Source: Synechococcus sp. CCY 9618
GTDB lineage: Bacteria > Cyanobacteriota > Cyanobacteriia > PCC-6307 > Cyanobiaceae
Reading direction: 5' to 3'
Assembly (NCBI RefSeq): GCF_019038415.1
Contig: NZ_JAFKRG010000047.1
Location: 1-64,000 of the forward strand
Length of the DNA stretch: 64,000 nt
A program made the translations under genes and the position numbers. The notes below the pieces were generated by a model. It did no database searches. It was not told the origin of the DNA and was given only the letters and a program-made list of their open reading frames with translations. The stretch's first letter is position 1. Every line of letters begins with the position of its first letter. This document shows positions 16,705-22,167 of the stretch, piece by piece.

Positions 16705-19515
16705 GTGGACGGTCCGATGGCCAGGGAAGTCCAGCAGCAGCTGACGCTCGCGGACGACCCGGGCCTGCAGGGGGACCTGTTCGGGGACGAGGTCTCCGGG
16801 GTCGCCGTCGAACCGGCGGCGCCGGAAGGCCCTGAAGGCAGCGCCCTGGACGAGCAGGCGCTGCTGGCCGACGCCAGCGCCCGGCCCCGGCGGCGCCGGC
16901 CCAGTGGCAAGAACGGGCTGGAGGGCGACCCGGCCTCCAGGCCGCCGGCCGAATCGGTGGCGGAGGCGCCCATTGGTCCCGGGGAGAGCAGCGAGGACGA
17001 CCTGCCCCGCTGGCACCACCATTCCCTGGTGGATCCGGCTGCCCTCACCCCGGTGCTGCGCCACTACGTGGAGCTCAAGGCGGCCCATCCCGACCGGGTG
17101 CTGCTGTATCGCCTGGGCGACTTCTTCGAGTTCTTCTTTGAGGACGCGATCCTGCTCTCGCGCCTGCTGGAGCTCACCCTCACCGGCAAGGACGCCGGCA
17201 AGGCCCTGGGACGGGTGCCGATGGCCGGCATCCCCCACCACGCCGCCGAGCGCTACTGCGCCGACCTGGTGCGCCGCGGCCTGAGCGTGGCCCTCTGCGA
17301 CCAGCTGGAGGCCACCCCCGCCAAGGGGGCCCTGCTGCGCCGGGGCATCACCCGGGTGCTGACGCCCGGCACCGTGCTGGAGGAGGGCATGCTGGCCGCC
17401 CGCCGCAACAACTGGCTCTGCGCCGTGGTGCTCGAAGGGGACGGCAGCCACGCGGGCCGCTGGGGGCTGGCCGTCGCCGATGTGAGCACCGGCGAGTTCC
17501 GGCTGACCGAACGCGGCGGCAGCGGCGCCCTGCACCAGGAGCTGCTGCAGCTGGAGCCCGCCGAGGTGGTGTGGCCGGGCCACGCGGAGCCGCCCCCCTG
17601 GTGCCCCGAGGGCCTGCGGCTCACCCCCCTGGCCCGCACCCCCTTCGAGGCACCGGAGGCAGGCGCCCTGCTGCGCCGCCGCTTCCGCCTGGCCAGCCTC
17701 GACGGCCTGGGGCTGGGGGAGGCCCCTCTGGCGCTGCGGGCCGCCGGGGGCCTGCTGGCCTACCTGGACACCACCCAGGCCGAACCTGCGGCGATCCCGC
17801 TGGAGATGCCGAAGCTCTGGCACGCGGGCGACCAGCTGGTGCTCGACGCCCAGACCCGCCGCAACCTGGAACTCACCCGCACCCAGCTGGGCGGCTCCCT
17901 GCAGGGCTCCCTGCTGTGGGCCCTCGACCGCACCGCCACCGCCATGGGCGGCCGCTGCCTGCGGCGCTGGATCGAGGCGCCCCTGGTGGAGCGCGCGGCG
18001 ATCCTGGAGCGGCAGGAGGCCGTGAGCGAGCTGGTGGCCCGGCGGCCCCTGCGGCTGGGCCTGCGCCGGCTGCTGCGACCCATGGGCGACCTGGAGCGGC
18101 TGGCGGGCCGGGCCGGCGCCGGCAGCGCCTCGGCCCGCGACCTGGTGGCCCTGGCCGACGGCCTTGAGCGGCTGCCCCGGCTGGCGGCTCTGGTGGCCCC
18201 CTGCCACAGCGCTCCACTGGTGGCCCTCAAGGGTCCCTGGCCCGAGCTGGCCGCCCTGGCGGAAACGGTGCGCCACCAGCTGGTGGAGACGCCGCCCCTG
18301 TCCCTGAGCGAGGGGGGGCTGCTGCACGACGGGGTCGACCCGGTGCTGGACGGGCTGCGCAACCAGCTCGACGACCAGGAGCAGTGGCTGGCCCGCCAGG
18401 AGGCGATCGAGCGGCGGGCCAGCGGCAACCCCAACCTGCGCCTGCAGTACCACCGCACCTTCGGCTATTTCCTGGCCGTGAGCCGGGCCCGGGCCGCCGC
18501 CGTGCCGGACCACTGGATCCGGCGCCAGACCCTGGCCAACGAGGAACGCTTCGTCACCCCCGAACTCAAGGGCCGCGAAGGGCGCATCCTGCAGCTGCGG
18601 GCCCGGGCCTGCCAGCGGGAATACGACCTGTTCTGCAGCCTGCGACACACGGTGGGGGAAGCGGCCGGGGCGATCCGGGCCGCCGCCCGACGGGTGGCGG
18701 AACTGGATGCCCTGGCCTCCCTGGCGGAGGTGGCGGCCACCGGCGGCTACTGCCGGCCCGAGCTGGGCGAAGGGCGGGAGCTGGTGATCGAGGCCGGGCG
18801 CCATCCGGTGGTGGAGCAACTGCTGGTGGAGGCGAGCTTCACCGCCAACGATCTGCACCTGGCGGCTCCCGGCCCGGACGGGGAACCGGCACCGGACCTG
18901 CTCGTGCTCACCGGGCCCAATGCCAGCGGCAAGAGCTGCTATCTGCGCCAGAGCGGCCTGCTGCAGCTGATGGCCCAGATCGGCAGCTGGATTCCGGCCC
19001 GTTCGGCCCGCCTGGGCATCGCCGACCGCATCTTCACGCGGGTGGGGGCAGTGGACGACCTGGCCAGCGGCCAGTCCACCTTCATGGTGGAGATGGCCGA
19101 AACCGCGAACATCCTCCACCACGCAACCCCCCGCTCCCTGGTGCTGCTCGACGAGATCGGCCGCGGCACGGCCACCTTCGACGGCCTCTCAATCGCCTGG
19201 GCCGTGGCGGAGCACCTGGCCGACGGCATCGGCGCCCGCACCATCTTCGCCACCCATTACCACGAGCTCAACGAACTGGCCGAGCTGCTGCCCAACGTGG
19301 GCAACGCCCAGGTGCTGGTGGAGGAGACCGGCGACGACCTGGTGTTCCTGCACCGGGTCTGCCGGGGCGGCGCCAGCCGCAGCTATGGCATCGAGGCGGC
19401 CCGGCTGGCGGGGGTGCCGGCCTCGGTGGTGCTGCGGGCCCGCCAGGTGCTGGGCCGCATCGAGGCCAACAGCCATGTGGCGGTGGGCCTTCAGGGAGGG
19501 GCGAGGGCGGCCTGA
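16705..19515 (+). CDS. mutS: DNA mismatch repair ATPase MutS
   Basis: The 936-residue protein recognises mispairs and recruits the repair machinery. A poorly conserved, Pro/Arg-rich stretch of about 100 residues comes first. The mismatch-reading F-x-E motif is Phe140-Phe141-Glu142 in [11 protein letters not shown]. The connector, lever and clamp regions follow. The ATPase has GPNASGKS near 737-744, LVLLDEIG near 811 and [11 protein letters not shown] second in-frame ATG at 16717 is an equally good start. Its last 25 bases overlap the end of the convergent cbiC gene. It is divergent from psbZ. Confidence 0.96.
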
Positions 19516-20138
19516 TCCAGCCAGGCCCGGCGCAGCAGGGCGTTGGCCGCCGCAGCCACCAGGCCGGCGCCCCCCTTGCTCCCCTCCAGCCGGATCTGCA
19601 TCAGGGGGCTGGCAGCCAGATGGCGCTTGCTCTCGGCCACCCCCACAAAGCCCACGGGCATGCCGATCACCAGCGCCGGTGGGGTGATGGCTCCGGCCGC
19701 GCTCAGCTGCAGCAGCCGCTCCAGGGCGGTGGGGGCGCTGCCCACCAGCACCACCGCCCCCGGGTGTTCCGCCAGGGCCCGGGCCATGCCCGCCGCCGCC
19801 CGGGTGCCGCCGGGGGGGGCGACGGACGGGGCCAGGCTGAGCACCGAATGGACCGGATTGGCGAAGGTGCGCCCGGCCATCGGGGCCACGGCGGCCGCCG
19901 CCATGGCCGTGTCGGTGAGGATCGGCGCCCCGGCCGCCAGGGCCGCCATACCCGCGGCGCAGGCGCCGGGGCCCAGGCGCAGATCGGCGGCGATGGCCAG
20001 GTCGCCGCTGCTGTGCACCAGCCGCTCCAGCAGCTCCTGCTCCACCCCCACCAGACCTGTGGGCCCCAGCCAGCCGCGGATGCGCCCCACGCTTTCGCGG
20101 AAAATCGGGTGGTCAAGGGAGGAATCGAAGCCGTCCAT
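19491..20138 (-). CDS. cbiC: Precorrin-8X / cobalt-precorrin-8 methylmutase
   Basis: The enzyme moves a methyl group from C11 to C12 to give hydrogenobyrinate or cobyrinate in cobalamin synthesis. The 215-residue sequence carries [12 protein letters not shown], with the catalytic His in the position of the family's H-A-T-G-D motif, plus [11 protein letters not shown] and [13 protein letters not shown]. These are standard CobH/CbiC motifs. cbiD at 60-61 kb points to the cobalt-early (anaerobic-type) pathway, hence the symbol cbiC. It overlaps the 3' end of mutS tail to tail. The exact substrate form is inferred. Confidence 0.92.
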
Positions 20139-20269: not shown

Positions 20270-20361
20270 CTGAGTGGGCAAGGGGCGGTGGTCAAGGGGG
20301 CGGTGGGCGCAGGCGGGTGGCGTAAGGGTGGCTGGCGGCAGATAACTGGTGGCCGGTGGCT

Positions 20362-20396
20362 GGTGGCAGGCGGCAGGTGGCAGGTGGCAGGTGGCA
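20362..20396. repeat. Five-copy heptamer array (GGTGGCA)
   Basis: Four perfect GGTGGCA units and one GGCGGCA unit (second position) stand head to tail. Degenerate GGTGGC units lie just upstream. Heptamer short tandem repeats (STRR) are known in cyanobacterial spacers, and this array is of that kind. Confidence 0.85.
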
Positions 20397-20439
20397 GGAC
20401 GATCGCCGGCGGCAGCCCTCTGGCAGCCAGAAACCGGAT

Positions 20440-20456
20440 CTGTACATTGTGTACAG
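20440..20456. promoter_or_regulatory. Palindrome with two TGTACA cores, probable antitoxin operator
   Basis: CTGTACA, a ttg spacer and TGTACAG form a perfect inverted repeat, 23 bases before the ATG at 20480. TGTACA is the core recognised by the YefM antitoxin in the yefM-yoeB operator of E. coli, and the gene that follows begins with a Phd/YefM-type domain. Binding by that domain would give autoregulation. The site is visible; its use is inferred. Confidence 0.65.
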
Positions 20457-20479: not shown

Positions 20480-21169
20480 ATGGAAACCCTCGGCGTCCTC
20501 GAAGCGCGGCGGCGCTTCCCCGAACTGCTCGACCGGGCCCGCGGGGGCGAGGAGACCCTGATCTCCCGCCACGGCCACCCGGTGGCCGCCCTGGTTCCCC
20601 TCTCCCGGCGCCACCGCCCCCAGCGGCAGGCCCTGCTCTCCCTCAAGGGCTCAGGGCGGGCCTGCTGGCCAGAGGTGCCCGTGCAGCGGGCCGGCAGGGC
20701 CGGGCTGGTGCAGTCCCTCGGGAGCGGCGCCACCCTGACCCTCGGTGCAGCCGTGGCGATCGACGCCACGGTGCTGATCGCTTACTTGCGCGGCGAAGCC
20801 TCCCGCCGCCACGAGGAACCCCTGATTGAGGCGATTGCAGCCGGCCAGTGGCGGGGTGTGCTGAGCATGCACACCCTGATGACGCTCGTTCAGGGGCCGC
20901 TCCGGCAGGGGGACGGGGCCCTGGCGGCCCGCTATGAGGCCGTGTTCAGCGATCCGGCGGCCTGGACCCTGGTGAGCCTCACTCCCCAGGTGGCCCTGGC
21001 GGCGGCCCGGCTGCACGGACCTGACCCGGCGTCGGCCCTGGAGTCCGCTACGGCCCTGGAGCTGGCCGCAGCCCTGCAGGGGGGCGCCACGGCGATGATC
21101 AGCCGGGACCCGCGCCTGCTGGCCGCCCTGCCCCTGCCGGCGCACCCGCTGCACCCACCCCTGTCCTGA
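20480..21169 (+). CDS. Phd/YefM-type antitoxin fused to a PIN-domain (VapC-like) toxin
   Basis: One 229-residue frame contains both halves of a type II toxin-antitoxin pair. Residues 1-45 (METLGVLEARRRFPELLDRA to PVAALVPLS) are a clear Phd/YefM DNA-binding and dimerisation domain. A linker with KGSGRACW, like the toxin-neutralising tail of such antitoxins, follows. From about 91 a PIN domain begins (VAIDATVLIAYL). By eye, two of the four metal-binding acids are changed. The Glu of the TLAEVLVGP-like helix is Thr135, and the Asp before the LATAL-like helix is Thr191. Asp95 and Asp210 remain. RNase activity is therefore doubtful. No stop or frame change separates the halves. The TGA overlaps the holA ATG. 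Confidence 0.8.
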   Translation: METLGVLEARRRFPELLDRARGGEETLISRHGHPVAALVPLSRRHRPQRQALLSLKGSGRACWPEVPVQRAGRAGLVQSLGSGATLTLGAAVAIDATVLIAYLRGEASRRHEEPLIEAIAAGQWRGVLSMHTLMTLVQGPLRQGDGALAARYEAVFSDPAAWTLVSLTPQVALAAARLHGPDPASALESATALELAAALQGGATAMISRDPRLLAALPLPAHPLHPPLS

Positions 21170-22167
21170 TGCCCATCCACCTCTACTGGGGCGACGACGA
21201 AGCGGCCCGCAACCGGGCCCTGGCCACCCGGATCGAGGCCCTGGTGGATCCGGCCTGGGCCTCGATCAACCTCAGCCGCCTGGATGGCAGCGACCCGGCC
21301 CAGGCGGTCCGGGCCCTGGAGGAGGCCCGCACGGCTCCCTTCGGCGCCGGCGCCCGCGTGGTGGTGCTGCAGCGCAGCCCCTTCTGCCAGGCCTGCCCCG
21401 CCGAGCTGGCCGCCCAGCTGGAGGCCTCCCTCGAGCTGATCCCCGCCGACGGCCACCTGTTCCTGATCAGCGACGGCAAACCCGATGCCCGCCTGCGCAG
21501 CACCAAGCGGCTGCGGGCCATTGCGGAGGAACACAGCTTTCCCCTGCCCGCCATCTGGGACGGGGCGGGCCAGATCGAGCGCGTGGAGGCCGCCGCCCGG
21601 GAGCGGGGGCTGACCCTGGCGCCGGCGGCGGCCGAGGCCCTGGCGGAAGCGATCGGCAGCGACGGGATGCGGCTGGCCAGCGAGCTGGAGAAGCTGGCCC
21701 TCCATGCCGGCCCCGGCGGCGGAGCGATCACCGCCGAGGCGGTGGCCGCCCTGATCGGCGGCCAGGTCACCAGCAGCCTGGCGGTGGGCGAGGCCCTGCT
21801 GGCCCAGCGTCCGGCCGAGGCCATCGCCCTGGTGGACGCCCTGCTGGCCGCCAACGAGCCGGCCCTGCGGATCGTGGCGGCCCTGGCCAGCCAGATCCGG
21901 GGCTGGCTGTGGGTGAGCCTGCTGGAGCGCAGCGGCGAACAGGACGTGGCCGTGATCGCCAAGGCGGCGGGGATCGGCAATCCCAAGCGGATCTATGTGA
22001 TGCGCAAGCAGATCCGCGGCCGCTCCCCGGACCAGCTCCTGGCCCTGCTGCGGCGCCTGCTGGACGTGGAGGCCGCCCTCAAGCGCGGGGCAGCGCCCGG
22101 CGAGGCCTTCCGGGACGGCTTCCTGCTGGCCGCCCTGGCCCGGGGCGGCACCGCCACCCGTCGATAA
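21169..22167 (+). CDS. holA: DNA polymerase III delta subunit
   Basis: The delta subunit opens the beta sliding clamp as part of the clamp loader. The 332-residue protein begins PIHLYWGDDEAARNRAL. The middle has the LASELEKLALHAG helix typical of HolA domain II. The C-terminal collar region carries LRIVAALASQIRGWLWVSLL and the GNPKRIYVMRKQIRG-type segment near 270. Delta is an inactive AAA+ protein, and no Walker A is seen, as expected. Its ATG shares bases with the stop of the toxin-antitoxin fusion gene. dnaX, another clamp-loader subunit, is at 45.1 kb. Confidence 0.9.
   Translation: MPIHLYWGDDEAARNRALATRIEALVDPAWASINLSRLDGSDPAQAVRALEEARTAPFGAGARVVVLQRSPFCQACPAELAAQLEASLELIPADGHLFLISDGKPDARLRSTKRLRAIAEEHSFPLPAIWDGAGQIERVEAAARERGLTLAPAAAEALAEAIGSDGMRLASELEKLALHAGPGGGAITAEAVAALIGGQVTSSLAVGEALLAQRPAEAIALVDALLAANEPALRIVAALASQIRGWLWVSLLERSGEQDVAVIAKAAGIGNPKRIYVMRKQIRGRSPDQLLALLRRLLDVEAALKRGAAPGEAFRDGFLLAALARGGTATRR

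Follow-up and report, generated by a model that had tools for sequence, protein, structure and literature searches.

The fate of chromosomal toxin-antitoxin (TA) pairs is a long-standing question. In type II TA pairs of the Phd/PIN (VapBC-like) kind, antitoxin and toxin are encoded by two adjacent genes. The antitoxins YefM and Axe recognize palindromes that have TGTACA cores and lie in pairs, 12 bp apart (PMC7730913), and the toxin serves as a co-repressor in the autoregulation of YefM-type TA systems (PMC4803016). Single-chain forms are also on record, including EzeT, a zeta toxin with an N-terminal antitoxin domain (PMC4826407, PMC4803016), the Phd-RelE fusion of Ralstonia eutropha (PMC4826407), YefM-YoeB and other mono-gene TA fusions (PMC11980606), and the HicA-HicB fusion Slr1999 of Synechocystis, which, going by the accessible part of its description, is another close known case (PMC4963859). 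Here, we describe a locus of the freshwater cyanobacterium Synechococcus sp. CCY 9618 at which an antitoxin domain and a PIN toxin domain form a single protein, encoded at positions 20480 to 21169 (plus strand) of the window, the whole stretch of 64,000 nucleotides that was analyzed.

The Phd-PIN fusion gene and its neighbors

The fusion gene encodes 229 amino acids in one frame, which is uninterrupted from an ATG at 20480 to a TGA at 21169. Conservation supports this start codon, and the mechanical open reading frame reaches back to 20216. Pfam searches placed PhdYeFM_antitox (PF02604) at residues 1 to 42 (E value, 7.5e-9) and PIN (PF01850) at residues 93 to 213 (E value, 9.8e-7), both above the gathering scores, and NCBIfam classified the protein as phd_fam, with TIGR01552 above its cut-off. 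The proposal of the first-pass annotation that a Phd/YefM domain and a PIN domain are joined in one frame is therefore borne out. The protein thus carries the Phd/YefM-type antitoxin domain of a type II TA system; the two adjacent genes of such a system are absent from the window and were found only in the relatives L096, L230, L234, and L097 to L099.

The protein was divided into four parts, for which the ratio of nonsynonymous to synonymous substitutions (dN/dS) was taken as the median of pairwise values among 14 genus members. The Phd/YefM DNA-binding domain (residues 1 to 42; 20480 to 20605, plus strand) has a dN/dS of 0.13. It is followed by a kept antitoxin segment (residues 43 to 64, containing LLSLKGSGRACW; 20606 to 20671, plus strand), with a dN/dS of 0.40, in which L52, L55, G57, and S58 are invariant among 29 fused sequences; the same LLxL+GSGRxCW segment is conserved in unfused antitoxins. 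The variable linker (residues 65 to 88; 20672 to 20743, plus strand), with a dN/dS of 0.99, occupies the position of the C-terminal tail of the unfused antitoxin, and the degenerate PIN domain (residues 89 to 216; 20744 to 21127, plus strand) has a dN/dS of 0.27, compared with 0.20 for holA. The Phd and PIN parts are under purifying selection, and the value of the PIN part indicates that it is selected rather than drifting. The AlphaFold2 model, built from an input of only 29 sequences, has a mean pLDDT of 83, with 93 at residues 51 to 60 and 60 to 71 in the linker. Foldseek matched the PIN part to the folds of VapC20, VapC15, and VapC11 with a probability of 1.00 and a modest best E value of 4e-3, and the N-terminal domain to VapB46 and P1 Phd, also with modest E values.

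A search of 149 relatives recovered the full-length fusion in 19 genomes, and the single open frame is retained in 18 genomes besides that of the window, with identities of 39 to 79%. An assembly error or frameshift artifact is ruled out because the frame is open in these 18 other genomes. The same in-frame fusion lies immediately 5' of holA in more than 30 relatives, and the alignment of 29 fused sequences covers the window and named genomes of Cyanobium, Synechococcus, Vulcanococcus, Aphanothece, and others. A family-level sample comprised 201 genomes, 33 of which had a match, a few of these being broken or unfused. No relative of the fusion was matched in phage and plasmid collections, and none of the PIN proteins of the same class from other families adjoins holA.

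The neighbors were correctly named in the first-pass annotation. The divergent neighbor is cbiC, encoding precorrin-8X methylmutase (19491 to 20138, minus strand; PF02570; E value, 4e-52), and the downstream one is holA, encoding the DNA polymerase III delta subunit (21169 to 22167, plus strand; PF06144/PF21694). The start codon of holA overlaps the fusion stop codon (TGATG), as it does in nearly all genus-level relatives, an arrangement suggesting that the fusion heads a holA operon. cbiC is likewise located beside holA in genomes that lack the fusion. Low-complexity GGTGGCAGG-like repeats occupy window positions 20285 to 20400 in the intergenic region between cbiC and the fusion, 5' of the palindrome described below.

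Loss of metal-binding acids in the PIN domain

The domain has the PIN fold of VapC ribonucleases but lacks part of their conserved metal-binding acids. Acid positions were anchored on unfused relatives that carry all four acids, such as L096, whose motifs IAIDSAPL, TLAEVV, LPDAIQLATAL, and SHDNDF contain the four intact. Against these anchors, the assignment of acids 2 and 3 to Thr135 and Thr191 in the first-pass annotation proved exact. Acid 1, Asp95 (20762 to 20764, plus strand), is kept, with D or E in all fused sequences. The position of acid 2, now Thr135 (20882 to 20884, plus strand), is E in the unfused motif TLAEV and T, R, H, G, or A in fused forms, E being found among the latter only in L080, L081, and L094. 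The position of acid 3, now Thr191 (21050 to 21052, plus strand), is D in the unfused motif LPDAIQLATAL and never D in fused forms, in which T, V, S, G, A, C, Q, R, or I was found among those examined. Acid 4, Asp210 (21107 to 21109, plus strand), is kept in the window's clade, with N, H, or Q in many others. Three residues past the lost acid 3 lies a new conserved acid, Glu194 (21059 to 21061, plus strand). Every fused sequence that covers this position has E or D there (Asp in L077), and the unfused ones have Q.

Misalignment as the source of apparently displaced acids is ruled out by the unfused anchors, except for the reading of Glu194 considered below. The E value of the PIN profile match is 1.6e-14 for L096 versus 9.8e-7 for the window, and L084 has no match. 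Judging from the two lost acids, the nuclease of the window is very probably weak or dead, as had been suspected, though the acids at 95, 194, and 210 remain.

Unfused relatives and history of the locus

An unfused pair occupies the same slot upstream of holA in three genomes, L096 (equivalent to L238, genome G222), L230 (G282), and L234 (G272), all with four intact PIN acids and an intact antitoxin C-terminal tail. In L096, the cbiC start on the minus strand (identified by eye) is followed by the genes for the antitoxin and the toxin and then by holA, these three being linked through stop codons that overlap the next start. The tails of the unfused antitoxins, IDALRNAWG in L096 or LVDDLRQDWP (of the LRxxW kind), are missing from fused forms. 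Remoter unfused pairs were found in proteobacterial metagenome assemblies (L097 to L099). One of these, L098, is titled Bordetella parapertussis, a species label that looks doubtful for this metagenome-assembled genome. These comparisons indicate that the gene derives from an ordinary two-gene Phd antitoxin/PIN ribonuclease pair between cbiC and holA.

A 35-sequence tree groups all fused forms in a single clade (support, 100/100). A single fusion event is thus the simplest history, with acid 3 lost at or before the base of the fused clade; repeated independent fusions are unsupported by this topology. The states of the locus are scattered over the HolA tree, with 17 changes among fused, unfused, broken, and empty in all and 9 for fused versus none alone. 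The unfused G282 (L230) stands beside the fused G260 (L166), with closely similar HolA, and the TA genes of G282 lie outside the fused clade, which suggests allele exchange, that is, allelic replacement between cbiC and holA. Broken copies occur in G009, G248, and G237, and only C-terminal pieces remain in G202 and G279. Most genomes that lack the gene have an empty site, with cbiC close to holA; the arrangement is therefore dispensable.

The upstream palindrome and its dispersed copies

A predicted operator palindrome, CTGTACA-TTG-TGTACAG (20440 to 20456, unstranded), lies 24 to 40 bases 5' of the start codon and consists of two TGTACA hexamers spaced 9 bp center to center. It is present in fused and unfused relatives alike: when upstream regions were compared with the degenerate form CYGTACR-NNN-YGTACRG, 30 of 32 relatives, unfused proteobacterial ones among them, agreed with it at 13 or 14 of its 14 bases, while shuffled sequence averages about 9 of 14 and rarely reaches 13 to 14. 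The TGTACA-core palindromes that mark autoregulated Phd/YefM operons are thus found 5' of the gene in the window and in these 30 relatives. Extra hexamers in the same row occur in L084, L090, and L091. A scan revealed no sigma-70 consensus promoter near the palindrome.

The pattern CTGTACA-NNN-TGTACAG was also found at dispersed sites, almost solely in gene-bearing genomes, and a reversed control pattern had zero matches anywhere. At least one perfect palindrome occurs in 15 of 15 genus genomes with an intact fusion, including G014, where it is present only at the gene, and G002, where perfect copies lie only away from the gene and its own copy has one mismatch. Of the 27 other genus genomes, only G038, an assembly without the holA locus, has any. 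Of the 201 genomes of the family sample, 20 have both sites and a gene match, 3 have sites alone, 13 have a gene match alone, and 165 have neither. Orthologous sites recur, most clearly 5' of thiC, where the palindrome is present in 10 genomes including the window's own and near-perfect in two more; the no-fusion genomes examined have no palindrome there. The second perfect site of the window's own genome (C19:24688-24704; L033:1501-1517) is this one, located 5' of thiC in a long near-perfect hairpin (z score, -7.6).

Some dispersed sites are long hairpins and some lie in repeat-rich islands. Such islands recur in genus relatives, partly adjoining other PIN genes (L044, L049 to L051, L055 to L057, L060, L062, and L063). 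In L133 (1501-2313) and L134 (1501-2316), CTGTACAGGCTGTACAG occurs twice, about 800 bp apart, and in L133, an open frame that by eye is MazF/PemK-like lies between the two copies. In G251, three in-register TGTACA hexamers with 9-bp spacing are located away from the fusion gene (C16:169142-169167).

With gene names assigned by eye, the sites lie between the divergent ndk and speA, in tandem before thiC, and between convergent genes after chlM and lepA, and a simple promoter regulon is unsupported because of these mixed orientations. A test of sites against the gene on the HolA tree yielded six supported independent pairs, with 2 to 4 changes in the same direction and 0 in the opposite one (P = 0.125 to 0.5, not significant), so the link of dispersed sites with gene presence is suggestive only. 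It is rather unlikely that the dead fused TA became a chromosome-wide DNA-binding protein acting on dispersed palindromes, some of them long hairpins, that are gained and lost with the gene.

A proposed built-in co-repressor and alternative explanations

The reading that we favor, to which we assign a probability of about 0.58, is that a former TA pair has become an autorepressor of its predicted operator, with the dead toxin as a built-in co-repressor. Sequence comparison shows that a Phd antitoxin/PIN toxin pair between cbiC and holA fused once, that all fused descendants lack the antitoxin C-terminal tail and PIN acid 3, and most of them acid 2, that purifying selection continued to act on the Phd and PIN parts, and that the ancestral palindrome 5' of the start was kept. 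The Phd part may then bind the palindrome and repress the promoter of the fusion-holA operon, and the dead PIN domain would be retained because it is a permanently attached co-repressor. PIN-PIN contacts could bridge Phd dimers on the two hexamers, so that the PIN part would act as toxins do in normal TA autoregulation, though in a fixed 1:1 ratio. Several observations weigh against this reading: the scan for a sigma-70 consensus promoter near the palindrome was negative, the hexamers are spaced by 9 bp and not by the 12 bp of YefM operators, many relatives do without the gene, the fold matches are modest, and the gene is lost or broken in some lineages. The first-pass annotation had envisaged a self-neutralized or inactive pair that became a stand-alone regulator. 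The operator-like palindrome, the constrained Phd domain, and the purifying selection are consistent with a DNA-binding protein, and "stand-alone" is to be qualified by the overlap with holA. "Inactive" appears to fit better than "self-neutralized" because the antitoxin tail is gone in fused forms, though the LLxL+GSGRxCW segment is kept.

A toxin that is still live but restrained by the antitoxin part of the same chain, as in EzeT, would require a rebuilt metal site with Glu194 replacing Asp191. Glu194 is new, lies about one helical turn from the position of Asp191, and is present in all fused forms covered, while Asp191 is absent; Asp95 and Asp210 are kept in the window's clade, and the GSGRxCW segment is kept as well. 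However, most forms, that of the window among them, have lost acid 2, acid 4 is H, N, or Q across whole clades, the PIN profile match decays from L096 through the window to nothing in L084, and a live toxin would hardly be expected to lose the antitoxin tail, all of which makes this explanation improbable. About as improbable is a role in immunity or anti-addiction, in which a dead allele took the place of a live pair and now either neutralizes the toxin encoded by unfused alleles or joins it in dead mixed complexes. The fused forms have no antitoxin tail for such a role, and exposure would be rare, since just three unfused genomes were seen in the slot, although fused and unfused alleles share that slot and the position of G282 nearest to G260 indicates that they were apparently exchanged. 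Slightly less probable again is a remnant drifting to loss, to which the three broken copies and two C-terminal pieces might point; the palindrome is conserved, and selection on the Phd and PIN parts in the 14 genus members is near that on holA, with the linker at 0.99.

Across living relatives, this one locus displays the empty site, the intact pair, the single fusion with a broken active site and without the antitoxin tail, and copies that are broken or reduced to remnants. Because the toxin domain is selected without its active-site acids, it offers a direct test of whether a co-repressor role alone can preserve a TA locus, and the position of the fusion at the head of an apparent operon with holA, a replication gene, would make a regulatory effect easy to measure.

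Comparison with known systems

A literature search whose scope took in few subscription papers returned no previous account of a family of Phd-PIN fusions. The closest known cases, in the available text of the papers describing them, include no Phd-PIN fusion kept without its nuclease site and with an unfused ancestor at the same locus. Like the YefM-YoeB and Axe-Txe operators (PMC7730913), the locus has a TGTACA-core palindrome pair 5' of a gene for a Phd/YefM-type antitoxin, with the toxin as co-repressor there and as proposed co-repressor here; the spacing is 12 bp there and 9 bp here, the toxin there is YoeB whereas here it is a PIN domain, and the operator here is predicted. According to the accessible portions of PMC4826407 and PMC4803016, EzeT is likewise one chain with the antitoxin part N-terminal, but its toxin domain is active; the fusion of the window has a degenerate active site and an N-terminal domain from a DNA-binding family. 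The Phd-RelE fusion of R. eutropha, as far as the available part of PMC4826407 describes it, also joins Phd to a toxin thought to be inactive. Truncations are blamed there, while here the domains are full, the toxin is PIN, the family is selected, and the ancestor is found at the locus. Natural antitoxin-toxin fusions such as YefM-YoeB are recurrent, but the mono-gene TA survey, in the part accessible (PMC11980606), covers toxins of the RelE/ParE fold, and no PIN fusion with lost acids was found in it. Ordinary Phd/PIN (VapBC-like) pairs share the Phd N-terminal domain, the PIN fold, and the upstream palindrome with a TGTACA core, and the unfused relatives L096, L230, L234, and L097 to L099 are of this kind. 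In contrast to these pairs, the locus of the window encodes one protein, from a family in which acid 3 is always and acid 2 mostly lost and the antitoxin tail is gone. What is new here is that unfused pairs, intact by sequence (L096, L230, and L234), occupy the same slot before holA.
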